NCBI GenBank assembly: GCA_029959195.1
Contig: CP114118.1
Location: 310,001 to 374,000 of the forward strand
Reading direction: 5' to 3'
DNA length: 64,000 nucleotides
DNA from: Dictyophora rubrovolvata
Taxonomy: Eukaryota; Basidiomycota; Agaricomycetes; Phallales; Phallaceae
A program made the translations under genes and the position numbers. Below are positions 44,935 through 62,445 of the stretch, piece by piece (within the stretch, counting starts at the first letter, position 1; every line of letters begins with the position of its first letter). A model generated the notes under the pieces. The model did no database searches. It saw nothing but the letters and a program-made list of their open reading frames with translations, and was not told the origin of the DNA.

Positions 44935-45247
44935 AGGGAGCACTTGAGGTCGAAGGAGGCAAGGGGAATAAAATTTAGAGGCGCTTGTTCCGTGACTTGC
45001 GCGTCACGATTGCGTTCCTGCCGACGGCATCGGTGGCTGCCGTGATTGCGAATCCGACGACGGTTGGCGGCGCGGGGCTTACGAGTTACGACGAGCAATT
45101 AGCTGACGCGTTTTGAAGGCAGCATGCGAGGTACTGATCTGATTCAGGTTTTAGTTATTTAACGGGTTGCGAGGGGCTTGTACATGTAAAGTATAAATTC
45201 CTGCTTTGAGTTCTCTTTCAACACATCTGCTCGACATCTTAGCTGCA
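44935..45247. promoter_or_regulatory. Shared divergent promoter
   Basis: The small membrane protein gene (-) and FAD monooxygenase gene (+) start 313 bp apart and diverge. The gap includes AAGTATAAATTC at about 45188-45199, about 55 bp upstream of the monooxygenase ATG, a plausible TATA element. Confidence 0.5.
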
Positions 45248-46535
45248 ATGTCTCTTCGTATCGCTATCATTGGAGGTATGTCTTGCACCGTCTCTATCCT
45301 TTCCTCATCTGACACGTCTTCAGGTGGGCCTGGTGGTACCACTCTTGCCCGTCTACTCCAGATCAACAACGTGCCTTGTACCATCTTTGACCTCGACAAC
45401 TCTGCACTAGCTCGTTCTCAAGGTGGAAGTCTCGATCTTCACACCGACTCTGGTCAAAAAGCTCTTAAAGAAGCAGGCCTATTCGACGAGTTCACAAAGT
45501 ATGCTCGCGCGGAAGGTTCAGCTTTGCGAATTTTAAATCCAGCCGGAAAGATTCTCTTAGATGCCAAAGGGGAAGGGCCGCGTGCAGACATGCGACCCGA
45601 AATTGATAGACGCGAACTTCGAGACTTGCTCATCAAGTCGTTGGAACCAGACACTATTCAATGGGAGAAGAAACTTGTCAACGTCGAGATCAAGGCCAAT
45701 AACAAATTTGATCTTCACTTCGCAGATGGGACGATTGAAAAGGATTACGATGTGGTTGTCGGCGCAGATGGTGCATGGAGTAAAGTGCGCAACGTTCTTA
45801 CCGATGGCAAACCGTTCTATTCCGGTATATATGGTATTGAAACTCGTATTGAAGATGTGAACAATCGATTCCCCGAGACTGGGGAATTAATTGGAGATGG
45901 ATCGTGTTTCTACCTTGATGAAGGAAGGGGTCTATTGGCGCAACGTAACGGAGATGGATCAGCCCGGATATACGCGATGCTTCGTGCTCCCGAAGACTGG
46001 ATAGACAATTCAGGGATTGACTGGTCAGATCGCAATGCTGCAGTGGAGATGTACCTTAAACAACACTTTGACAATTGGGACGAAAGGGGTAAATTTTGGA
46101 TGAGAAATGGTGACGATATTCTTCAACGCCCGTTGTATATGTTGCCTATAGGTCTCAAATGGCCTTCTAAACCAGGGTCAGTTGATTTCCGTCCATGTCA
46201 TAGTGCGTATCAACCGATTAATGTTGAATTAAATTGTTTTCAGTATAACTCTACTTGGAGATGCCGCTCACTTGATGACTCCATTCGCTGGGGTGGGCGT
46301 CAATCTTGCCATGACAGACGCTCTTGATCTTTCCAAAGCAATAATATCAGCTGCTCGAGGCGAGATTTCTCTGTCAGCCGCAACTGAACAATACGAAACA
46401 ATTATGTTCGAACGATCCGCGGAAAATGCTCAGAAAACGATGAACAATCTGAATCTTATGTTCGGCAAGGATTCAGCCGAGAAGATTGCCAATATGTTTG
46501 GAGACATTATGTCGGGAGGCAGGAATCCTAGTTGA
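45248..46535 (+). CDS. FAD-dependent monooxygenase (aromatic hydroxylase / TetX-like)
   Basis: Three exons (45248-45275, 45324-46176, 46244-46535) give 390 residues. Motifs are complete: MSLRIAIIGGGPGGTTLARL (GxGxxG FAD motif), DVVVGADGAWSKVR (DG motif) and LLGDAAHLMTPFAGVGVNLA (GD motif), with RRELRDLL in the conserved Arg region. The layout matches class A flavoprotein monooxygenases that hydroxylate aromatic or polyketide substrates with NAD(P)H, including TetX-like proteins. No signal peptide; likely cytosolic. The first intron is in frame, so an unspliced frame also stays open. The substrate is unknown. Confidence 0.9.
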
Positions 46536-47035
46536 GGTTTAGTCAAGGGTTTTCTTTGGATATGATAGATGCGTCTAAACACCTTTTTCGTTGACCGATA
46601 ATCAACTTACTTCTCCACCAAAAATTCTTCTTTTTCTTTCGTCCCAATTCAACCGCCCACTTGAAATATATGCACTTTATCACCTGCCACTACTCTCATT
46701 ACCTTCGTCTCACTCCACTATGTTTTATCGTCATATTGTAATTATCCCCATTTAATGTCTAATAACAAAGAAATCGATCTTGTCCTTTAACCTGCAGGAA
46801 TACTTCGCAGTTGAGTAATGGGTTCAGTCGCACTGGCAGCACAGCATTGAATAATGATCATATGTATAATCGCGGGATATATACAATCCGAGTGCAAATG
46901 TATTCATAATCAATTATATACACATAGAGGAAAGTGAATTGACATTTTAAGAGTGCTTGATCTTGATCTCTATTGCGATCTACTTGACAGATGTCTTTGG
47001 CCAGACAGACTTGAACGCTTTTGTTGTCCAATTAG
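46536..47035. other. Convergent intergenic region
   Basis: Between the FAD monooxygenase 3' end and the 3' end of the decayed DUF6535 copy. 46980-47035 matches the 3' flank of the intact DUF6535 gene (for example GATGTCTTTGGCCA), so the duplication extends beyond the stop codon. Confidence 0.55.
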
Positions 47036-47622
47036 CTATGGAGTGAAGGCCTCCTCGCTGTGGATATATGCTTTAGCAGAGGGACTGAAATGAAGAACTT
47101 GCGAAAATACCTCGTCAGTATCAGGCACCTGGGCACGCTCTTCAGTATCGTGATCCTTGTCTGCCGCCGGTGCAGATTGTTCGGTAGCGGACTCGAGTTG
47201 GGGGTGGGACACACCTATGATTTGTCTAAATTCACGCGCAGACGCCTCCAAGGAATAAAGAATGTCTTTGCGACCGCGAAACCAGAGTATCAATTCGATA
47301 TTAAGGCCTCTGGCTTTGTCAGATCGTGCTTGCTCAGTCATGGCGGCATAGAGCTCAATCAACTTCTCCTAGTCAAGCTTCGATTTTACAACAAGAAGAA
47401 ACTTTTTCGCATCCAACCTTTGAAACATAAGCGCCTTCCATAGTTGCACAAGCACGGACGGCTTGTAGAGAACGTTGAACAAAGGCACCTTTGGGTTCAC
47501 AGACTTGAGGATATCCATTAGGTTCGGATACATGTATTTTCTGGAAAAACGGAGACTGCGACAACTCCCTAAGTTTCGAAAACAATTTGTGAAGTGGGAT
47601 ACGGCGTCGGGATCGTGAGAGA

Positions 47623-47890
47623 TGTAAGGGAATCGACTCCTACAAGAGCCTCGGCCCTCCCCTTATTAGTTAATCATTCTTATCCAATTCCCCTTACTTA
47701 ACTTTCCATTCCTTTCTTCGTCTTTCTTTTCTTTATTACTTAATCATTGGGTCTCAAAAGATATATAAAGCGAGTGTTTTTGTATCTAGTTCCAGCAGTT
47801 TTCAATTAACGAGACTTTCATACACTCTGTTTATTGAACGTCTTTGTCTATTATGAAAGCTTGTGTAGTCTACATCACGAAGACTTCACA
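47623..47890 (+). mobile_element. Solo LTR inserted in the decayed DUF6535 copy
   Basis: The 268-bp insert begins TGTAAGGGAATC and ends GACTTCACA. It is flanked by a perfect 5-bp target duplication AGAGA (47618-47622 and 47891-47895); the intact gene has a single AGAGA at the matching site near 53260. TG...CA ends, 5-bp duplication and an internal TATATAAAG identify an LTR without internal region. A relative lies inverted at 30270-30484. Confidence 0.9.
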
Positions 47891-50385
47891 AGAGAGGAGG
47901 GTGCATAGACGATCGCAGTTCTGTGGCATGAGTAACAGTGTGAATATGGGAGTTGTGTGCCATGAGAGATATGAATTGAGATTGTCTCGCGAACACCATT
48001 GATATATGGGAGAGAGGTCGTCGCATTCCGTAAAAGTAAACTGGTTAGCCACGTCGATGTCCATTGAGTTCCAAATCTCGTTCAGACACTGTACTACCTT
48101 CACTCTGCCACCGCCATCCCCAATAGACTCACTCCAGAATGCATCCACGCAGAAAATATCGATGAAGAAGGCAAGGTACTGTTCAGACGAAGGTTGGGGT
48201 TCAGAGGAATCAAGCCAATCAGAAAAGTTGTCAAACAGACTCGACAAGGACTCCCGCCTCTGTTCTTTGTCGGCAATTAGGGGTTGATCAGAGGTGAGGT
48301 CACGATAGATGGTAACAAGGAGGAGATAACGTGTTTCGAAGGTCTTGTCCAGGGAATAGTCCGGGTTGGTGCCACCAAAGAAATAACGGTAAAGGTACCT
48401 AAATTTCCACCATCCCAGTTCTCTATTATCCAAGGATACGACACCCGTGTTACGTATGGATCCGCGAGTGGGATCAGACTTCCATTCAAATAGATCACGG
48501 TGTCCAGGGGTGAGTATATGCGCAGCGATTGTAGCATCTACTGACACCTCTTTGAAGAAAATGTCCCAATGGTCAGTGGAAGCTTGAGATCGTCGTTGAT
48601 GGCATGCTTCATAATTTGGTTATAATTGCAATCTAATACATTCTTGGCAATTCGAGAATAGCTTCAATATTCTGCTTCTTCCAGTCGACTTTCTCTCACA
48701 TCGAGAATAGACCGGAGTAGATGCCAGTGCCCGTATATGTCTGGGTGATCCAGACACAAACCAAAATGCAGAAAAAATGAATACGCACAACGCAAACCTA
48801 GACACAAACCATAACGCCAATCCACAACGTTTGTTTCACTGACCTCCAAAGTCCGCAAGAGATTGTTGCATATAACGAGTCCGAATCTCTCACCGATATT
48901 TGGGTGCACAGCTACACACCGTGCAATAATCCGATGAACACTCCTATTTGGAGAAGTCACATAAAGCCAACGGAGCGCTTGGATATCGAGGAAAGCTGCA
49001 TTTTTGATAGCTTTCTTGATATTTTCTTCTCTCCACTTTGTGAATTTGGGAAACTCCTCGATAAATAGGGTGACCCGGAGTGTACCAAAACACGATGCAT
49101 GACACCAGCTAACTTGAAGATAGGGAAGAATGCGTGTGCTGAAGGAGACGCTGAATAGTCTGACAAACTTGGGAATTTATTCTTCTCCAAACAGCCTGAA
49201 ACCCCTTTGCTGAAGCCCTGCTAACCCAACGGAGAATGGTTTGTATGGAAAAGACAAGAACACCAACGTAAATCGTCAATGAAGTCGTATACAGACATTC
49301 AGGATACCGAATGGGCAATATCACAGAAATAAAGTATAGATATGTGATACCCGTAATTATGATGATCGTCCAGGCGACCCGAATGTCCAATGGAAATAAT
49401 AGTATGATGATGCCTGTGAGGAACATGTCGACAGCAAGATGTAGCAGAATAGGGAGAAGGTCGATGATAGCACCAACGTTCCACAATTCAAACCCGTTAA
49501 ACCGCAGCTGTCTGGCTCTCACTTTTTCATGGGCTGTTCCAGTGATAGAAAACAGATAATAATAGAGCCATTGTTTGGCGAGGACAGCAAATAGCGCAGT
49601 GGATAAAGTGATCGCCAGGCTGGTAAACCACAGACCGTTCACTAAAAACGCAGTTGTCGATGGTGTGAACGGAGAAGTAGGGGTTAGTGGTGAGCTGGGA
49701 ATGTTATTTAACGGTGTTCCGCTAGATTGTGCTCGTAGTAATTGGGTTATTTCATACAATAAGGATGCGGAAACTTGGGTATTATCTTGTTGTAGGCTTT
49801 GTGAAGCCTGTGAGACGAATGTTGTTATAACGCCAGAAAAGAGGCCGGCCTAGTGAGTAATAAGGTTAAAATAATATATCATGCAAAGCATATATTCTGC
49901 CTACAAAAACCAGGAGAACGTCTGCTGTCTCTTTCCACCCATCTACTCTCTCACGATCAAATGATTCAGCTTCATCAAGGTAAGTCAACCAAATCCGAGC
50001 GTTGTCGGCCTCCTCTCCAAATTGATCCCGTGAATATTTCTGTTCGTAATCATATCTATTATTCGCTAATCTACATTACATCTAACGTCCAAAGTAAACG
50101 GAACAACAATACTCACACCCAGTTTCAGATTGTGAACCTTTGGTCAGTCCGAAGAACCTCTTGCGCCTCGCCGTGTTTTGTTGCGTATGAGTAGAATTAG
50201 ATGTTGCTGGGTTGGGCGCGGCCTCTAGAAAGTATGTGAGTGATGAATTTTATACCACAAAACAAGGAACCCGCCAAGAAAATCTCGGAAGAGGGCCACT
50301 AAATTTTCTATCGTTTCATCAGACTGTTTGCCCTTCATGGCGACAGGTTGCTTGCTTTCCTCGCTCAAGGATGTCACTGCGGTGT

Positions 50386-50470
50386 TTATGGATGAAGACT
50401 CGGAATTTATGGATGGAGGCTTGATATTTATGGATGGAGGCTCGAAGTGTATGGATGGAGACTCGGAATT
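50386..50470. repeat. Minisatellite in the 5' exon of the DUF6535 copy
   Basis: About four degenerate 24-27 bp units built on TTTATGGATGGAGGCTCG, encoding on the minus strand repeats like PPSIN and SSSIN. The intact gene has only one such unit (SPSINAAA), so the array expanded in this copy. Confidence 0.75.
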
Positions 50471-50527
50471 TTCAGCAACTGGCGCAGCTCCATGGTCGCC
50501 AGAAGAATCGTTATATCCTACCGTTTC

Positions 50528-50810
50528 CAGTCGAGGAAGATGAATTCGTAGATTCGTTTGCGGGCAGTTGGCTAGGGATTGATTGTTGTTAGGAGTCATT
50601 GAATTGGAACAGTGTAAACACGCAGTACGCACGTATGTAGTGTTGTAACCCTCGTGATTGCCTAATACGAAGAATATCCTTTTAGTTGACGGTAGAAAAA
50701 GTCGAATAGGCCTGCTTAAGTCGTGAGACCGACGCTTCCAAGTAAACCGAGACTGGGAGCTGTGGCTGGGAAGTCGAAGGCTCCTTTTCTTCAGCCGCAT
50801 CATCTTTCGC
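50528..50810 (-). pseudogene. Possible remnant of a calcineurin-like metallophosphoesterase
   Basis: On the minus strand the frame contains KRIFFVLGNHEGYNTTYVRT, in which VLGNHE matches the metal-binding GNHE box of calcineurin-like phosphoesterases. The other motifs (DxH, GDxxD, GHxH) are absent. The frame runs directly into the DUF6535 copy, so two unrelated sequences are joined here. The call rests on one short motif. Confidence 0.35.
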
Positions 50811-51212
50811 TTCTATACTTGTCCATTTGATGCCTGGTTCTTGTTTGCAGACACAAATTCCGATGCGGGTGGGTAAGACTGTGAACGGTTTGTTTGTCGG
50901 GGACGCTATCGTGTTGAAGAGGGTCGAGTCCGAAAGAGCATCTCGAGTCATATCGGGTGTACGAAAGTCGACTGAGAACTAGGTGAGATGGACTAGCGTG
51001 GGTGAAGTTGATATTTGGGTGGAGATGAGGGACATACCAATCTTAAATTCATAAATGAAGACATGTCTTTCTGTCGAACACGTTTGACGATTAGATCGAC
51101 GACGACCTGCTGCAGGTGTTGAGAACGGAAGAAGAGGTGGAGAGATGGTGTTTGTATAGAGATCTGAGGAGAGCCGAGTTGAAGTGGCTAAATAGAGCAT
51201 GAGACATTCCAC
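50682..51212 (-). CDS. Hypothetical two-exon frame, unrecognised
   Basis: From ATG 51212 the frame reads MECLMLYLATSTRLSSDLYT to YEFKIG. A GTATGT donor and a CCTAG acceptor can join it to FSVDFRTPDMTRDALSDSTL and on to a stop at 50682 (about 150 residues). The second part is rich in Glu and Ser and ends YSTFSTVN. It overlaps the phosphoesterase-like remnant in another frame and could belong to the same decayed gene. No family is recognised. Confidence 0.3.
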
Positions 51213-52194
51213 GTTGATTCGAGGTTTTTAACAGATCAATGTCCGAAAGAATAGACTACGCATTGCTCGTTGGTACAGACATTGACGTACATTGCTCCAA
51301 AAAATTCGCTGGGTGAAGTTTATTATGAAATGACCGCAGTAAATTATGTAACGAAGCACAAAACATACTCATACTGATGGATTTCCTTTCCGAAGTCTAA
51401 TTGTCTAAATCATATAGTCTCGTTAGCCTTTACAGATTATCCAGAAAGAAGCATACGGAGTGTCGTGACTTGGTCGGTGCACGCAAGCCAAGATGCCGTA
51501 GCGAAGCTGAGTGTGAAAGCTCGGCTGACATGCTGCCGAGACGAGCTCATTCTACCAGCCGGACTGCGATTATACATATATGCACACTGGGAAAATTCGC
51601 TACACCATCTGTATCCGTAAATCTGGCCTCTTTCGAGATAAAAATCCTCGTCGTAAACGTTGCTCTGCACAGAGTCTTGTACAATGTGAAGATGTTCGGA
51701 GACGAGCACGCCTGTCTTCATCGTAAGTGAACATTCAATATTTATGGCTTGAGCTTACTAACAAGACTGAGCTTGATTTTTAGATTATACTAAAAGATAT
51801 TTAATCCAAGAAAAAAACGACCACCTGGGGTTCGTCGCGACGGACAGGACAATATTTCTGTGATGCGACTACTACTTGTAGCGCACAAGCGAATTTCACC
51901 CGCTGATCTGTTTGTTGTATTGCATGTGATATTAATTTGCTAACATCTACCGGCCTGTTTCTTCTATCTTCGGACTCGGGAGGTGGCTAGTGCAACTCTC
52001 CAAGCTTGCCAAACCAATCTTTTTCATACGGAGTCCACATCCGATCATAGCGTTAGTAGTACATAAATATTTAGGTGAAGACCTGTCAATGCGCCTAGTC
52101 TGCTTACTTCCCGCCTCACTATGGTTTGCTATCTTCCTATATACTGCAGTCTCCGATGAATTTTGGGATAATGGGATAGGAAAACGAAAACAAT
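51213..52194. other. Intergenic, no gene recognised
   Basis: Short frames without motifs between the hypothetical frame and the ORF at 52195. No repeats recognised. Confidence 0.45.
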
Positions 52195-52554
52195 TCAGGG
52201 GATGAAAACGAGAACCATGGGCGAGCACCACCTCGGAACATTCTCAACGCGTCGATATAAACTCTTTTCAATCCGTGTAAGATGCGTAACAACGTCGATA
52301 TTTTCCGGTGTAGATGGGAGAAATAGATGAGGAAAATGTGAACGCAAGGGAGCTACTACTGGACCTCGTTTTACATTAAATGATACCGTCTCTCCGTCAT
52401 TGTCATTGTTTAGGCCTTTCTTGTAAGCAATTGGCTTTGGGATACAATAATACTTGTTACAGATTGCATGATAATTCATGACATATACAATTGGCGTAGG
52501 ATTATATTCAAATACTTTTAATACACAGAGTGAGGAGGGAGGCAGTTCAGTCAC
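52195..52554 (-). CDS. 119-residue ORF, unrecognised
   Basis: An open frame from 52554 to 52195 with ordinary composition (for example NKYYCIPKPIAYKKGLNNDN and LFLPSTPENIDVVTHLTRIE). The lack of low-complexity sequence makes it look more like real coding than a shadow, but no homolog, signal peptide or partner exon is recognised. It may be a fragment of a longer lost gene. Confidence 0.3.
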   Translation of the reverse strand: MTELPPSSLCVLKVFEYNPTPIVYVMNYHAICNKYYCIPKPIAYKKGLNNDNDGETVSFNVKRGPVVAPLRSHFPHLFLPSTPENIDVVTHLTRIEKSLYRRVENVPRWCSPMVLVFIP

Positions 52555-52660
52555 GTTGAAAATTTAAAGTGGTACATACATATGTCCAACTCCTGGCTAT
52601 TGATCTACTTGATGGATGTCTTTGGCCAAACAGACCCGAACGCTTTTTTTGTCCAATCAG

Positions 52661-55600
52661 CTATGGAGTGAAACCCTTTACGCTGTGGATATATGCCTTA
52701 GCAGAGGGACTGAGATGAAAGACTTGTGAAAATACCTCGTTCGCGTCAGGCACATGGGCACGCTCTTCAGTATCATGATCCTTGTCCGCCGCGTGCTCGG
52801 GTGCAGATTGTTGAGTGGTGAATTCGAGTTGTGGGTGGGATACACCTATGATTTGTCCAAACTCACGCGCGGATGCGTCAAGGGCGTCTTGAAAAGCGTG
52901 CGTGTTTTTGTCAAACCCCAATTCCTGGGTAATATAGTCCAAGTCTTCCCAGTTGTTAGATCGTGCTTCAGTCATGGCGGCATAAAGATCATCCAGCCTC
53001 TCCCGGCCAAGCCTCTTTGATTTTACAACAACAAAAAACTTTTTCACATCTAACCTTTGAAGCACAAGCAATTTCCATACTTGCACGAGCACGGACGAGT
53101 TGTATAGAACGTTGAACAAAGGCACCTTCGGGTCCTTCACAGACTTGAGAATATCCATTAGGTTCTGATACATGTATTTTCTTGCAGAAGGAAAATGGGA
53201 ACAATTCCCTGAGTTTCGAAAACAATTTGAGAGGTGGGATACAGCGTCGGGATCGCGAGAGAGGAGGGTGTATAGACTATCGCGGTTCCGTGGCATGAGC
53301 AACAGTGTGAATATAGGGGCTGTGTGCCATGAGAGAATTGAACGGAGATCTCGCGAACACCATTGATATATGAGAGAGAGGTCGTGACATTCCGTAAAAT
53401 GGAAGCGTTCAGCCACATCGGTGTCCATTGAGTCCCAAATCCCTTGCAGACACAGTACTGCCATTGATCTGCCTCTGTCCGGCACAGACTCGTTCCAGAA
53501 TGCATCTGCGCAGCAAACATCGATGAAGAAGGTAAAGTACTGCTCGGAAGTGACACGGGGTTTGGAATCAAGCCAAATATTGAAGTTGATAAACAGATTC
53601 CACAAGGACTCCCGCCTCTGTTCTTTGTCGGCAATAAGCGGTTGATCGGAGATAAGGTTACGATAGATGGTGATAAAGAGGAGATAACGTGTTTCAAAGG
53701 TCTTGTCCAGGGAATAGTCCGGGTTGGTGCCACCAAAGAAATAACGGTAAAGGTACCTAAATTTCCACCATCCCAGTTCTTCACTCTCCGAGGATACAAT
53801 ACCCGCGTTACGTATGGATCCGCGAGTGGGATCAGACTTCCATTCAAATAGATCACGTTGTCGAGGGGTGAGTAGTATATGCGCAGCGATTGTAACATCA
53901 ACTGACGCCCTTTTGAAGAAAATGACCCACATGGCCAGTGGGAGTTTGAGATTGTTGTTGATGGCTTTCTGAATAATTTGGGCATAATTGTAAGTGTAAT
54001 GTGTTACATTTTTGGCAATACGAGAATAGCTTCGATACTCCGCTTCTTCCAGTTGACTTTCTTCCAAATCGGGAATAGATCGGAGTAGATACCAGTGGTT
54101 GCGCTCAGTAACAGTCAGGAGATCCAGACACAAGCCATAACGCAAATCCATGACATTTGTTTCACTGACCTCCAAAGTCCGCAAGAGATTGCCGCAAAAA
54201 CCGTATCCGAATCTCTGACCGATACTTGGATGCACAGCTACACAACGTGCAATAATTCGATGAACACTCCTATTTGGAGAAGTCGCATAAAGCCAATCCA
54301 GCGCCTCGAAATCGAGGGAAGCCACATTCTCGACAGCTTTCTTTAGATTCTCTTCTCTCCACTTTGTGAATTTGGGAAACTCCTCGGTAAATAGGGTGAC
54401 CCGGAGCATACCAAAACCTCGACGCATGACGCCAGCTAACTTGGAGATAGAGATGAATCCATGATGAAAGATGCTGTAGGTGTGCCGAACTTGGAGACGC
54501 CGAATAGTCTGACGAACTTGGGAGTTTATTTTTCTCCCAACTACATGGGAAATGCTTCTCAAAGATGCGCTAATCCAGCTGACAATTGTCTTCAGGAAAA
54601 AGACGAGAACACCAACATAAATCGTCAAAGAAGTCGTATACGGACATTCGGGATACCGAATGGGCAATATCACAGAAATAAAGTATAGGAAATATGTGAT
54701 ACCCGTAATTGTGACAATCGTCCAGGCGGCCTGAATGTCCAACGGAAATAATAGTATGATGATGCCTGTGAGGAACATGCCGACAGCAAGATGTAGCAGG
54801 ATAGGGAGGAGGTCGATGATAGCACCAACGTTCCACAATTCAAACCCGTTAAACCGCAGCTGTCTGGCCCTCACTTTTTCATGGGCTGTTCCAGTGATAG
54901 AAGACAGATAATAATAGAGCCATTGTTTGGCAAGGACAGCAAATAGCGCAGTGGATAAAGTGATAGCCAAACTGGTAAACCATAGACCGTTTACTAAAAA
55001 CGCATTCGTCGATGGTGTGAACGAGGAGATAGGAGTTAGTGTTGAGCTGGGAATGTTATTGACCGGCGTTCCGCTAGATTGTGCTCGTAGTAATTGGGCT
55101 ATTTCGAATAATAAAGACGCAGAGACTTGAGTATTATCTCGCTGAAGGCTTTGCGAAGCCTGTGAGACGAATGTCGTTATAACCCCAGAAAAGAGACCGG
55201 CCTGACGAATAGTAAGCTTCAAAAGCATGAATACAAAAAGATTTTGCCTACGAAAACTAGGAGAACATCTGCGGTCTCTTTCCACCCATCTACTCTCTCA
55301 CGATCAAACGATTCAGCTTCATCAAGGTAAGTCAACCAAACACGCGCGTTGTCGGCGGCCTCCTCTCCAAACCGATCCCGTGGATATTTCTGTTCATAGT
55401 CATATCTATTATTTGCTAATATCGTTCATTTTTAGTACTCAAAATAAACAGAACAACAGTACTCACACCCAGTTTCGGGTTGTGAACCTTTGCTCAGTCC
55501 GAAAAACCTTTTGCGCCCCGCCGTGTTTCGTTGCGTATGAGTAGAATTAGATGTTGCTGGGTTGGGCGCGGCCTCTGGAAAATATATGAGTGATCGATTT

Positions 55601-55908
55601 TTATATCACAAAACAAGGAACCCACCAAGAAAATCTCGGAAGAGGGCCACTAAATTTTCTATCGTTTCATCAGACTGTTTGCCCTTCGCGGCCGCCTGAG
55701 GTTGCTCGCTTTCCTCGTTCAGGGGGGTCGCTGCAGCGTTTATGGATGGAGATTTGGAATTCTCAGCAACTGGTACAGCTCCTCGGTCACAAGAAGAATC
55801 GTTATTATCCTGTGAAGATCCTTCCACGACCCTTCCAGAACTTTCGCCATCTTCATTTGGAGCCTCAAAGTGCACTGTTTTCTTGTTCAAACCAGCTGTT
55901 TCGGACAT
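52661..55908 (-). CDS. DUF6535-type multi-span membrane protein, intact copy
   Basis: Four exons (55908-55626, 55574-55469, 55405-55252, 55201-52661) join in frame at GT-AG sites to give 1027 residues. Exon 1 is hydrophilic and disordered (MSETAGLNKKTVHFEAPNED). Exons 3-4 give the family core: YDYEQKYPRDRFGEEAADNA, WLTYLDEAESFDRERVDGW, then LLVFAGLFSGVITTFVSQAS, and spans at GLWFTSLAITLSTALFAVLA, AIIDLLPILLHLAVGMFLTG, IIILLFPLDI, and YFLYFISVILPI. The C-terminal about 550 residues are soluble-looking, with many Trp and Cys (for example LYRYFFGGTNPDYSLDKTFE), ending AKAYIHSVKGFTP. DUF6535 proteins are expanded in Agaricomycetes and have no known function. Two further copies lie in the window. 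Confidence 0.85.
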
Positions 55909-57956
55909 GGTAAGTGTCGATTGCGATATGATGTTAAGAGGATAAGGTCACTGATAATGCCACAGAAATGAGCCGAGGGGAATGAAAGCCTGGGGCGTGG
56001 TGCATGAACATGCCGGCATCACCCAAAAACGTATGTAACCTGTCGCTTCGTTACATGTCAACTGCGTGTGACACTGTGCAGATTCGACCCGTTGAATAAT
56101 AAAAAAATTAGAAACCAATAATATTTCAGTAACTCTATTATTAATGGACCGTCAACTTCGCGTTCCTGTGTTGATGTGACAAATTAAGTTACCTCAAAAT
56201 AGAATCGTATACTGGTTCAACGAAGCGTAGTTGAGCATTGTGGTTTTTCAATAGTCTATAATAAGCAACAGTCAGTACCATTACTGAGCGTTGCTCTGAT
56301 ACCTTAGAGTTATGAATCCCAACTCGAGTTTCGAGGAATGCCCAGTGAATGACGGGCGGCGGGCGCGAATCTTTTGGCACAGAAATGGAGAGCAGACGAC
56401 ACCGCTTCCACGTCTCTTCTCTTCTCTTCTCATCTTCGATTTTGGCACTGTCATCTGGGCCATGCCCGTCATTTCATTTTTACCTGAATTTGGCTGTCAG
56501 CGAGTTTGAGCATTTGTGGTTACCGGTACCCACGGTAAATGCGAGCCAATCCGAATTATCAACTCGTCCGCGTCATCCCTGAAACCTGTGGAAACTTGAC
56601 GTCCCACCAGCCAAAATTTCGAGAGCACGTTAAACTGGAACAAAAAAAAAACTGCTAGTATATTTTCCGCGTCCAAGTTCATAACAGTATAATACACAAT
56701 ATGCTGCAGTTGAGGTAAATCATCAACCTAAGAAACCGGTAAATCCATACAATCATAGAGGAATACTAAGCTCGACCTACCACGAGAGATTTAAATGCAA
56801 ACACAGCGAGGTTGAGCATAATTAGCGTAAATTCATGCAGAACGTGAGAAGAGTGCTGTTATCACAACTGCTGCATTTGCTAGCGCTTTGACTCGTTTGT
56901 TGATTTTGGCATCCATTTAGAGTATTTCACGCTTACACGAATTTGGACACGTCACTAGTTCAAGGTCGACAGGGAAAAGACGGTCTGGAAACAATTAATT
57001 CAGCATTGAAGTTCGACCTAGAGTGAAAGAACGCGAACCTTAAGTAAATATTAATGAATTTCTCATAAAACAACTTCGTTGTCTTGTCATTGTGATTTTC
57101 GTCGAGAACCATGCAGAAGTATCATGGCGCCAGCATACCTGAAAATGTTTAATTCAGCCCAAATCATGTTGCGCAGACCCTGATACGATAATGAAGCTGA
57201 AAAGTTCAAATAGATCGCCTAAAAAAAACGGATGATGTCCCAGATTAGACTTTCCAAGTTATCTAGCGATTTGGCGCACCTTATCATCCCGTATTGCCAG
57301 CTCTAGCTCAATTTCACTGAGAGATTGTCTCCAAAATAACATTGCGTCATTCACCGATATTGAAGTTCTTTTGTACGAGACATTGAAAACTCAGAGCTGC
57401 ATGCGGGTCAATGTGATCGCCGGCGGCCGTGCTGCAGCCTTACATAATCCGAATGTGTCACGACACCACTTCTGCTCCCAGTTCATTTGCGTAGGAAAAA
57501 ACTCAAAAAAGTGACGACGATGATTCAATTTCTTATCAACTTCACCAAAAAATATATAACACGACCGTAACACGTATAAATACCCAGCAATACACCGTTC
57601 AATCTCTCTTTCCAGTCGCTTTTGACAACCGTTTATAGGGACATGAAGCTTGACAAGCTTGAAGAGCCGGGACTCCTTCCTGCATAGATGGTAATAAGCT
57701 TAGCAGACTGAAGAACGCACTCCTAGCAGACTCAAATATCTCGATCTCGGCGTTCTTTCCCTCAACACAACGCTGTGCATGTGGCTCATATGCCAACAAC
57801 TTGAAGTTTCCACCAACACGGCTGCGAACACATCTTCGTCACAAATGCCCAACCAAGCTCTGTAATCTCTACACAATCGGTAGTCGTCTCGAGACCCGCT
57901 GCTGTTGAGTTACAGTCACAGTGTATATAGTTACATACGTGCACCGTGCCTATTTC
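55909..57956. other. Gene-poor region
   Basis: Promoter side of the intact DUF6535 gene, then about 2 kb of AT-rich sequence with only short frames lacking motifs. No repeat was recognised. Confidence 0.45.
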
Positions 57957-58107
57957 CTCACTCGTGTTGAGTACACGTAGTGAGGTACGTTCCTTTTATA
58001 GTTTAGCTGTTCTTTCTATTATTAATTACTGTACCTAGCAATATTCTTTAGGTATGCTAATATTCTATCACTCGTGTTGAGTACACGTAGTGAGCAATAT
58101 TCTTTAG
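57957..58107. repeat. Duplicated hairpin motif
   Basis: TCACTCGTGTTGAGTACACG followed by TAGTGAG occurs identically at 57958-57984 and 58068-58094; each copy is an imperfect palindrome (CTCACTCGTGT against ACACGTAGTGAG). AGCAATATTCTTTAG is also repeated (58038-58052 and 58093-58107). The block could be part of an unrecognised element. No coding sequence is present. Confidence 0.6.
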
Positions 58108-59027
58108 CTGCCGACTTATCTACATACCTATTACACCGACATTAGACTTGTCTTGCGCCTAGTCTATCAAAGCTTATTCATTCAATTTCATCTTTTGAAA
58201 CAAGGCGCGGGTCCATAAACCCTTTAAAAGGACATTCCCGACAGACGAAAATGAGACTCACATGGACAAGCAGCGTCTCGAGTTGTCTATAGGGTTGGTA
58301 GCTCGTGAGATAGAAGATGCTCGTGCCAGTCTTTGTCGCCTGAGAGATCCAGAGTGAATCAGTGACACGCGCCCGATGTACAAGTTGGTACGTGAATATT
58401 CAATGTTCAACCATTTGTCTATCATTTTCGGTTTTCTTACTGTCTTCAAAAGTGGCCGTCGGTAGTCTTGTGTCCACTAGATCCTGTGAGAATATTTCAA
58501 ATTTGAGGCTGATGGCTTCAGTCTCAGCATAGTACATATTAACGGTTGCTGAACAATGTGCATAATGTGATTCGAGCCCAATTATATTTGTCAATTACAT
58601 ACATATAGTAGAGAAAGCAGATCAATTGTGTTGACGTTTGTTAAGTACCGATTCTCGGGTATCGATGATGAATGTATATGTGTTAGAATCCGTGTCTAAT
58701 AGTAATACAAACTTCACCGGGTTGGCATAGAGCGTGGTCTCAACCTGAGTGGGTTGTACCACGACAGTCCTCTGAGCATTAGCTCTACTTGTCTTGATGA
58801 CGTTCGGGACCTTCGAGTCTGCGGAGGATATCATTGAGCCAAAGCTCTAAGAAATCTAGAACAATCTGTAGGAATAGATTGTCAACAAGGAAGCAGAAAA
58901 AGAGTAGGTTAAAGAAGTAGCAGATCCAATGCCGGAACAGCGTTGTCACTACAGACGGTTTAGATTTGGAGCATTTAGAAATGACTGAAGCGGTAATGAG
59001 TAAGAAAGACTATATTGAGATATCGAA
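58108..59027. other. Gene-poor region before the nested LTR block
   Basis: Only short frames. 58834-58622 on the minus strand is open for 70 residues (for example KFVLLLDTDSNTYTFIIDTR) but has no recognised homology. Confidence 0.4.
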
Positions 59028-59593
59028 CTAGGTGTCACACTCCATGTGTGTAAAAGTCTTCTGACTTTTACACAAGAACTTCGGATAAAACGAGGATCAG
59101 ACAACAATGAGCGTAGTAACCTTCGTAGAATTAGAAGCTAAAGAATAAAATATCTATATCTCGAGTATTTATAAGAAAAAGAAAGATTATCTAATAAGAA
59201 ATAAAAGGAAACTTATGGAAAGAAACTATTAATAAAGACAAAGAATAAATGAAAGTAAGACAAGCTGACTATGTCTGTAGTCTCCGACTCGGGAAACTTG
59301 GATAAGAGTCCAGACTCTTACAGTGTGCCACACCTTCCTAATTTGGAAGTCTGATCCCATTCTAGTTATTTCTGTACTCACCCCGCATCTCCATAGCAAT
59401 CCCATCCCATACTTGTCAGTACTCTGTCCAGACGTTGTCTGGACTTCGAATCTGTCACCTTCCTTATGGGGAAACCGGCCCCTGACTCTTAGTAATAAGG
59501 AACGAAGATTTTATAATCATCATCCCTAGCTGTGTTCAACCATATGCTACCTTTCCTTATTTTGTCTTATCTCCATTCCCGTAGTTCTGCTCC

Positions 59594-60000
59594 TGTCAGG
59601 GCTACTCACTCAGACTAGAGGGAGGGAATCCTAAGCAAAATGTATTTTGGAAAAATACTAACTCACCTAGAGTGAGGGGATTCTAAGAGAACAAACTTAG
59701 GGATCCCTCCTCTAGGGCTACTAACTATATACTATGAAAAAACAGTGAAGGCCATACGCGGCCTTCGGTTCATAGACTGGGCGCGGATACGCACCAGTCC
59801 CGGATCTTTAGCCGTGGCCTAGGCCATGGCTCTGATGGGAATAGGCACTCAGCGCCCATTGGAGGGAAAGAAGGGAATACGGAAGGAAGGGGGAATGCAG
59901 GAAATGGGATAAAATATGAGAAATAAGGAAATGAATAAAATAAACCAGAACCGAAGATAAATGAAGGAAAATAAGGGGACAACGCTAGCGTACTCTGACA
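59594..60000 (+). mobile_element. Solo LTR, 407 bp, nested in the larger LTR
   Basis: Begins TGTCAGGGCTACTC and ends GTACTCTGACA, with a perfect target duplication GCTCC (59589-59593 and 60001-60005). It is the same family as 61290-61714 (inverted) and 62875-63280. Non-coding; probably a fossil left by recombination between the two LTRs of a full element. Confidence 0.9.
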
Positions 60001-60170
60001 GCTCCTTCCTGTATTTAAACCCCCAGCTTACAGCTGGGGTTCCTCAGTCCGAATATCAGCTTTATTAGTTTCATCTTGTACTCTCTAAGTCCCTGCCACT
60101 CCGAAATTGAGGGACAGATAAAGCTGGGTGAGTGGGCGCAGCTTATAAGCTGAAGCCGAGTCCCTCATCC

Positions 60171-60250
60171 CATACTTCCGTACTCCATCCTCCGTCCGTC
60201 TCTAGTGGTCCATACTTCCGTACTCCATCCTCCGTCCGTCTCTAGTGGTC
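60171..60250. repeat. Perfect 40-bp tandem duplication inside the large LTR
   Basis: The unit starting CATACTTCCGTACTCCATCC occurs at 60171-60210 and 60211-60250 with no differences seen, so the duplication is recent relative to the LTR. Confidence 0.9.
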
Positions 60251-60305
60251 CAGACTTTCTCAGAGACATCCGGAATAGTCCCAGACCACCATATGTAACA
60301 CTAGG

Positions 60306-60778
60306 TTCGATATTAAGTCTAAAGAGAAGTCTAGCTACAATGTATAGAAAGCTTTATATACAAGTACACTAGAGATTTGGATCTCAGTTCGAAATAGATA
60401 ATGAACTTGAGAATGTATACATGTCATAGCAATTCATGAGTATCATACATATATGCAGGGTCGGTTTGCCATGTGGCAAACATGAAGCAACAAGAACAAA
60501 GGGAAACACATACAAGGACCTATGACCATCATAGATGATCTTATGTACAGTTTGGAACTAGAATGTAGACCAAAGGTCTATCCGCGGCTTACTATAAGTC
60601 CTAGGAAGACGATGGCATCTAGGACTTCGTGAAATGGTACTGAAGTCTGGCAAGACTTCCGGTTGTAGCATCTGCAATGTGATTGTGATAAGATAATGTT
60701 TGAATACGATATGATAAGGGAATAAAAGAAGAAATCCGTATCACTAGTGATGTCATGAATTCGGATCATGACAACATT
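60306..60778. other. Gene-poor region between the LTR block and DUF6535 fragment
   Basis: AT-rich. A palindrome GTTTGCCATGTGGCAAAC lies at about 60465-60482. No gene recognised. Confidence 0.45.
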
Positions 60779-61289
60779 TCAGAGTGCTACATACATCCCG
60801 ATCTTGTTAATTTTATTCAACGAATGTCTTCGGGCCAAAGAGACCCGAATGCTTTTTTTGTCCAAATAGCTATAGAGTGAAAACCTTTGGTCTGCGAAGA
60901 TATGTGTTAGCAGACTGGGATGGAGAATTTGCAAAAATACCTCGTTCACACCAGGTACCTGGGCATGCTCTTCAATATCATGGTCCTTGTCCACTGCACA
61001 CTCAGGTGTAGAGTCTTTGGTAGTGAATTCGAGTTGTGGGTGGGATACACCTATAATTTGTCCAAACTCATCCGCAGGTGCCTCAAGAGTGTCAAGAACA
61101 TCTGTGCCTTTGTCAAACTCCAATATTTTGACATAAAAGTTCAAGGCTTCCGAGTCGTCCCTGTCAGATCGTACTTGCTCAGTCATAGCGGCATAGAGCT
61201 CATTCAGCTTCTCCTGATCAAGCTTTGAATTTACAACAAGAAGAAACTTTTTTGCATCCAACTTTTGAAATACAAAAAATTTCCATACT
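60779..61289 (-). pseudogene. 3' fragment of a third DUF6535 family copy
   Basis: On the minus strand it reads MDAKKFLLVVNSKLDQEKLN, ELYAAMTEQ, FGQIIGVSHPQLEFTTKDST and AQVPGVNEVFLQILHPS, matching the last about 150 residues of the intact gene (LDVKKFFVVVKSKRLGRERL and onward). Near the end an extra base shifts the frame so the family ending GFTP is replaced by a longer tail. The 3' flank (GGCCAAAGAGACCCGAA) is shared with the intact copy. The fragment stops where the inverted LTR begins at 61290. Confidence 0.85.
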
Positions 61290-61714
61290 TGTCAGGGTAC
61301 ACTAGCGTCGTCCCCTTATTTTCCTACATTTATCTTCAGTTCTGGTCTATTTTATTTATTTCCATATTTCTTGTATTCTATCCCATCTCTTGCGTTTCCC
61401 TCTCCTTCTGTATTCTCATTTTCCCTTCTGTATTCCCATTTTCCCTCCAACGGGCGCTGAGCACCCGTTCTCATCAGAGCCATGGCCTAGGCCCCGGCTA
61501 AAAGTCCAGGACCGGTGTGGATACATGCCCAGTCCACAAACCGAAGGCCATGTGTGGCCTTCACCGTTTTTCATAGTATATAGTTAGTAGCCCTAGAGGA
61601 GGGATCCCTAAGTTGTTCTCTTAGGATCCCCTACCTCTAGGTGAGTTAGTATTATTCCTAGAATATATTTTGCTTAGGATCCCCTCCCTCTAGTCTGAGT
61701 GAGTAGCCCTGACA
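61290..61714 (-). mobile_element. Solo LTR, inverted copy of the 407-bp family
   Basis: Begins TGTCAGGGTACACTAGCG and ends GTAGCCCTGACA, the reverse complement of the ends of the copies at 59594 and 62875. The flanks are ATACT on the left and GTAGA on the right, so no target duplication is present. The left flank is DUF6535 coding sequence but the right flank is not, which indicates a rearrangement across the element. Confidence 0.88.
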
Positions 61715-62445
61715 GTAGAACAAACTTCCACCCCGGGACCGGTCATTTCTATCAACGTTCACCTTCAGAAAATTGTCCTCAACAATGACTCGTTCCATCT
61801 CGAGTCCTTCCTTGTGCTCTGTCTATAACTTGTGTTGCATGTGAAAACGCCATACAAGGAGAAACAGTAGAAATTGATGCTTCGGGCTTAGTACTACCCG
61901 AGCTGGAATAACCAATACTCGCACAGCCCATCCCTCTTATATGTGCTGACATTGTGTTCCCTAAGACAATTATAAAGGCCATGTCGTGTTTTTTTTCTTG
62001 GTTTCACATTCCATTTTCATGTTTTCTCCCTATTTTACATTTTAATCACTCGGCGAAACCCTTTTCCTTTCTCTTAATTCCAATCCCCCGACCATGCATT
62101 CATTTTCCACATGGTCTTATCTCGTTTTGTTCACATTTAGATCACAAGTGTTCCGTTTTTCACTCGGACACTGAGTTACTCATGTATATAAAATCCGCAG
62201 TTTTAAGACCAAAAATATCATAAAATAAATTCCTTAGTTTTGTATCGCAGCTTTTCCCTCAGTCTGAAATTGAGCAAATAAGCTTTATTTCTACTTCTCT
62301 ATATTTACAATTCCTATCCTATACTATTTTTCCTCGACTCACACTTACCACTTCGTTCCCTTTCCTTCCTGTTCGCTTCTGTTGCATATGTATCACTTGA
62401 CCCTTCCCATCCTTCTTACTGTGCACCTAGGCTATTTTTACTATC
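61715..62445. other. Region upstream of the gag frame
   Basis: Probably partly the leader of the gag-bearing element (a pyrimidine-rich tract precedes the gag start), but its LTR could not be delimited. A minus-strand frame at 61982-61779 has no recognised homology. Confidence 0.4.

Follow-up and report, generated by a model that had tools for sequence, protein, structure and literature searches.

The stretch of DNA analyzed here (the window) comprises 64,000 nucleotides of Dictyophora rubrovolvata, C2:310001-374000 in a genome of 28.2 Mb on 11 contigs, and carries three minus-strand copies of a gene for a protein of the DUF6535 family, which is expanded in Agaricomycetes. A preliminary description, made from the letters of the window alone, had reported an array of an intact copy, a full-length decayed copy and a 3′ fragment, and all three were found where it had put them. 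They are members of a genome-wide DUF6535 family and not only of a local array. The intact gene joins a conserved membrane module to a C-terminal half under diversifying selection, and we tentatively propose that this half is the recognizing part of a receptor. The main features are as follows (omega, ratio of nonsynonymous to synonymous substitution rates).

52661..55908, minus strand, intact DUF6535 gene (splice model, Pfam PF20153, exon homology in paralogs)
54700..55252, minus strand, membrane module, approximate extent (hydropathy, 16-paralog averages, omega 0.19)
52661..54346, minus strand, diversifying C-terminal half, residues 471-1031, predicted to be cytosolic and helical (site models, periodicity, fold model)
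47000..50527, minus strand, decayed full-length DUF6535 copy (frameshifts, stops, homology to the intact gene)
60824..61291, minus strand, 3′ relic of a DUF6535 gene (homology; closest to the copy at C2:386k)

The intact gene has four exons (55908-55626, 55574-55467, 55415-55252, and 55201-52661) separated by three introns of 50-51 nt, each beginning with GT and ending with AG, and in most paralogs tblastn finds matches to exons 1-3, in unchanged order, upstream of the main exon. The splice model yields a product of 1031 aa, compared with the 1027 residues given at first. The sole Pfam match in this protein is DUF6535, at residues 157-337 (E 1.5e-57), and its score of 194.7 bits against a curated cut-off of 23.9 for PF20153 makes it a member of the family. 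With its membrane module fully matched, the window gene is a plain member; however, the Pfam model covers only the residues named, and the selected C-terminal half lies outside it.

Membrane spans are predicted at residues 179-197, 258-276, 319-337, and 346-364, the first of them split by the third intron. These four hydrophobic spans are kept across 16 paralogs, whereas a fifth hydrophobic stretch (377-395) is not. Lysine and arginine make up 3.4% of loop 1, 16% of loop 2 and 17% of the part after span 4 in the 16 paralogs, a distribution which suggests that the N- and C-termini are in the cytosol. The fold model of residues 687-975 (289 residues) is helical, with a predicted local distance difference test (pLDDT) score of 71 and a predicted template modeling score of 0.62; an 846-residue fold gave a pLDDT of 43.7 and was excluded from the fold search. 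The likeness to ARM/HEAT solenoids (karyopherin-beta2, PP2A B56, and the SARM1 ARM domain) comes from this model of moderate confidence, whose best structural matches are ARM/HEAT proteins with weak scores, below the value of about 13 under which the tool advises caution with helical repeats, in a comparison list that lacks some families, e.g., MLKL or HeLo. There is thus moderate support for cytosolic termini and for a C-terminal half that is a helical solenoid. No Pfam family was found in the C-terminal half at the thresholds used (E up to 1 for the full window protein and up to 5 for the main exons of 16 paralogs), a PDB sequence profile search returned a single chance-level match (E 1), and NCBIfam returned one sub-threshold match only, to a conjugation protein (E 0.043, cut-off 164 bits). 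The 16 members gave no Pfam match to HeLo or related four-helix families of pore-forming cell-death effectors (HeLo/MLKL type), the membrane module not having been folded alone.

Selection on the two halves was analyzed with self-written versions of the codon models M0, M7, M8a, and M8, of which M0 gave a log likelihood (lnL) of −10877.90, compared with −10878.00 from IQ-TREE. All selection comparisons are between paralogs of one genome. The site models were run on 215 membrane codons and 510 C-terminal codons of 11 of the 17 paralogs with a long main exon; C5:2466k, C4:564k, C6:1683k, C10:991k, C3:426k, and C3:437k were excluded as too divergent or added later. Among the 11 is C2:418k, in which a stop removes the last ~45 residues, which continue beyond it. 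The membrane module is conserved (omega 0.13 pairwise and 0.193 by M0), and M8 against M8a, with a twofold lnL difference of 2.26, gave no significant selected class. In contrast, the C-terminal half has an M0 omega of 0.847, and the twofold lnL differences are 187.07 for M8 against M8a and 221.14 for M8 against M7, with an omega of 3.63 for 14.9% of codons under M8 and 32 sites at P>0.95. This bears out the diversifying pressure suspected in the preliminary description, which had also suggested a test for positive selection in this half. The sensor or self/non-self type system that it offered as speculation is still a conjecture.

The M8-M8a signal is retained in 227 C-terminal codons distant from gaps (49.4), in the nine closest paralogs (170.7) and in each of five C-terminal segments analyzed with their own trees (45.2, 20.4, 58.7, 20.6, and 16.9). 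Four data sets simulated under the fitted null gave M8-M8a values of 0.89, −0.07, 0.03, and −0.19; because the same simulations gave M8-M7 values of 8-25, the latter comparison should not be quoted alone. The selected sites are spaced i, i+3, i+4 (e.g., 761/764/765/768/771/772/775), with the 100-degree periodicity of an alpha-helix (z = 7.1), and their phase is 173 degrees from that of hydrophobicity (resultant 0.64; random 99th percentile 0.59). The diversifying sites would therefore lie, as far as spacing can tell, on the helix face opposite the hydrophobic side.

PF20153 is found at 32 places genome-wide (our grouping of 52 profile rows, with one place just below the curated cut-off), 11 of which are on C2, the window's contig, and eight of those within 359k-529k. 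A long main exon of 789-916 open codons is present at 17 of the 32 places. Five are broken on reading (C2:359k, C1:220k, C3:566k, C11:522k, and C1:3007k), nine contain no open frame longer than 250 codons, as judged from profile-search rows only, and the last, C7:1363k, may be intact or broken. Of the places outside the 17, three or four may be genuine genes divided by introns. PF20153 matches all 16 aligned members, the paralog tree is near-star, and close copies are 79-83% identical. A tandem pair on C11 (516k intact, 522k broken) mirrors the layout of the window and includes a related intervening stretch. We also observed an extra small membrane-module relic (L024:887-988) about 2 kb upstream of the gene at C2:434k.

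Exchange between paralogs is evident from the trees of the membrane and C-terminal parts, which reject each other in the approximately unbiased test (p = 5.4e-7 and 4.2e-5). Between the intact and the decayed copy, the synonymous divergence (dS) is 0.084 at exon-4 residues 81-146, compared with 0.528 and 0.272 in the flanks, a local drop such as gene conversion would give. C-terminal homology extends to C5:2466k, C10:991k, C4:564k, and C3:426k (E 2e-15 or better), whereas profile comparison detected no C-terminal similarity to the window family in C6:1683k and C7:1363k, where the likeness is confined to the membrane module; in these two, the whole C-terminal half has possibly been exchanged.

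The decayed copy is homologous to the intact gene from exon 1 to just beyond the stop, with 66-97% identity per aligned block and profile E-values for single pieces down to 1e-120, and the intact gene is its nearest relative (82.9% over C-terminal DNA). It is broken by frameshifts, stops and an inserted 268-bp repeat. As the preliminary description had recognized, this repeat is a long terminal repeat (LTR): a solo LTR that starts with TG, ends with CA and is flanked on both sides by AGAGA, a 5-bp target duplication, with further genomic copies of up to 100% identity. Homology of the decayed copy starts at 55811 in the coordinates of the intact gene, within exon 1, and the 5′ end of that exon has no homology to the intact copy; because eight other copies extend to 55952-56052, the 5′ end has been lost or replaced. 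The relic corresponds to about the last 141 codons of the intact gene (77% identity, profile E-value 2.9e-47), and its open frame continues to 60779 in an extension without homology. Its best match is the next copy, C2:386k (78.5%), the intact gene being lower (76.2%). With this, the similarity of the three copies, on which the description of an array depended, is beyond question, and duplication, decay and 5′ loss are supported. The claim of a common 3′ flank stands only in part, since the flank is present but short, homology ending 64 bp past the stop in the decayed copy and 45 bp past it in the fragment.

The remaining features of the window are mobile or dispersed sequences, among them elements resembling miniature inverted-repeat transposable elements (MITEs), and the stretch between two of the copies.

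47623..47890, strand not assigned, solo LTR of 268 bp in the decayed copy (TG...CA ends, AGAGA target duplication)
50600..52560, minus strand, stretch between the intact and decayed copies (recurrence beside other copies)
59593..60001, strand not assigned, MITE-like repeat lying 3′ of the relic (short terminal inverted repeats)
60300..60773, strand not assigned, dispersed repeat of 474 bp immediately 3′ of the relic (genome copies)
61289..61715, strand not assigned, second MITE-like repeat, in opposite orientation, which cuts the 5′ edge of the relic (short terminal inverted repeats)

Parts of the stretch 50600-52560 recur at seven other places, six beside DUF6535 genes and one (C4:409.8k) away from any. 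It looks non-coding and may be the trace of a segmental duplication or a conserved element; a companion gene in this position was rejected, the listed open frames being short and, by eye, unconserved. The MITE-like repeat of about 410-430 bp has at least 40 close copies (40 scored of 382 first-look candidates) and is elsewhere in the genome sometimes found as adjacent inverted pairs, and the 474-bp repeat has at least 40 copies of 88-92% identity. We considered capture of the relic inside a long inverted repeat and rejected it, because the arms are separate dispersed elements with many copies, each with its own short terminal inverted repeats, and the 474-bp repeat also adjoins the relic. KDZ transposase had six profile matches in the genome of the window and none in 14 control genomes, as would suit a basidiomycete. 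Directly downstream of the decayed copy, a 376-codon open frame (45197-46327) resembles, by eye, an FAD-dependent monooxygenase.

What the sequences establish by themselves is a conserved module, a C-terminal half of about 600 residues with diversifying codons spaced as they would be on an exposed helix face, and duplication, decay and exchange of the genes. Our preferred interpretation, which we put at slightly short of an even chance, is that DUF6535 proteins are membrane-anchored receptors whose cytosolic part recognizes an ever-changing partner. The conserved four-span module would anchor the receptor in the membrane, and the varying helix faces of the C-terminal half would bind a variable partner, either a non-self protein from a different strain or a molecule from a parasite. 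Binding might then cluster or open the membrane module, or change its state in some other way, and the altered module would send a common, fixed signal.

Several observations weigh against the receptor interpretation. Steady distinct ligands could also drive divergence between paralogs, one site in the membrane module reaches P>0.95, and any helical protein that buries one face should show such periodicity in its variable sites. In the distant pair C3:426k/C3:437k, omega is 0.32 in the C-terminal and 0.09 in the membrane part, with dS near saturation. A disproportionate share of the selected sites is close to gaps (25 of 32 within three columns of a gap, compared with 283 of 510 columns overall), so that misalignment could supply part of the signal, and site models can be inflated when paralogs exchange sequence, an effect that segment trees lessen and do not remove. 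Finally, in exon 4 of the 11 paralogs, synonymous sites have diverged less over most of the C-terminal half (dS 0.43) than over the membrane module (0.62), although the C-terminal half has the higher amino-acid divergence.

The first of these points leads to the alternative that DUF6535 proteins are membrane sensors or carriers for many steady ligands, such as nutrients, signals or secondary metabolites of competitors, with paralogs tuned singly and with neither an arms race nor a self/non-self role. Selection was measured between paralogs only, and the near-star tree with its closely similar copies fits a single duplication burst followed by specialization. However, a carrier should diverge along its substrate path, and the membrane part, with its low omega, shows little such divergence. 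No transporter family appeared in the Pfam, NCBIfam or PDB profile searches, and the genes at roughly half of the 32 places are short or broken; we consider this explanation somewhat unlikely.

It is also conceivable that the C-terminal half is weakly constrained and that omega above 1 arises from exchange, misalignment or uneven synonymous rates in a household membrane family that has expanded beside mobile elements. The exchange is real, and the enrichment near gaps, the unequal synonymous rates of the two parts and the M8-M7 values in null simulations all point in this direction. Nevertheless, relaxed constraint yields an omega of up to 1 and not of 3-4, M8-M8a did not exceed 0.89 in any of the four null simulations, the signal persists in gap-distant columns and in all five segments, and it is missing from the membrane half, which is part of these genes and shares in their exchange. 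An artefact of this kind is unlikely. A further reading is that the protein acts within the individual and not between individuals, as a cytosolic receptor that restricts mobile elements or mycoviruses and is held at the membranes used for viral replication. This would draw on the same evidence as the receptor interpretation, and a cytosol-facing variable surface suits an intracellular target, but it seems improbable. Viral and prokaryotic contigs gave pattern matches only and no confirmed relative, and PADLOC gave no hit, both being little informative for a fungal system.

Among known systems, the receptor interpretation comes closest to the fungal nucleotide-binding oligomerization domain (NOD)-like receptors (NLRs) of the HET-D/E/R type and their relatives, which, in the excerpts of PMC4986451 consulted, are likewise multicopy, evolve by birth and death and combine a conserved module with a helical or repeat part carrying selected surface sites. 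According to the same excerpts, their TPR and ANK repeats are positively selected, with the selected TPR positions on the concave helical face (PMC4986451). A variable domain with selected surface sites has a putative counterpart here in the helix face opposite the hydrophobic side. In contrast, the full window protein and 16 members have no Pfam match to NACHT/NB-ARC, WD, ANK or TPR, and DUF6535 proteins carry four predicted membrane spans. High-identity internal repeats were not noticed in them, no search having been made for such repeats. The NACHT profile has 19 matches genome-wide and none on C2, with a model that is also weakly positive in 11 of 14 control genomes. By analogy, the DUF6535 protein may work like a fungal NLR; it is not one, because the Pfam searches revealed neither a NOD nor a repeat family.

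In the excerpts of open-licence papers covered by our literature search, the family is named only in a row of a Flammulina transcriptome table, among downregulated genes. Somatic incompatibility of basidiomycetes is described, in the part of a 2021 review that was available, as poorly understood, modeled on ascomycetes and seemingly governed by 3-5 loci (PMC8229728). It is possible, though on balance doubtful, that DUF6535 is a class of immune or allorecognition receptor of mushroom-forming fungi undescribed in the literature searched, with a four-span output module and a cytosolic solenoid diversifying on one face, which serves non-self recognition in basidiomycetes. The family would in that case be a concrete candidate set for basidiomycete non-self recognition, with named codons, and NLR-like logic, a fixed output module and an evolving helical surface, would be present in proteins without a nucleotide-binding switch.

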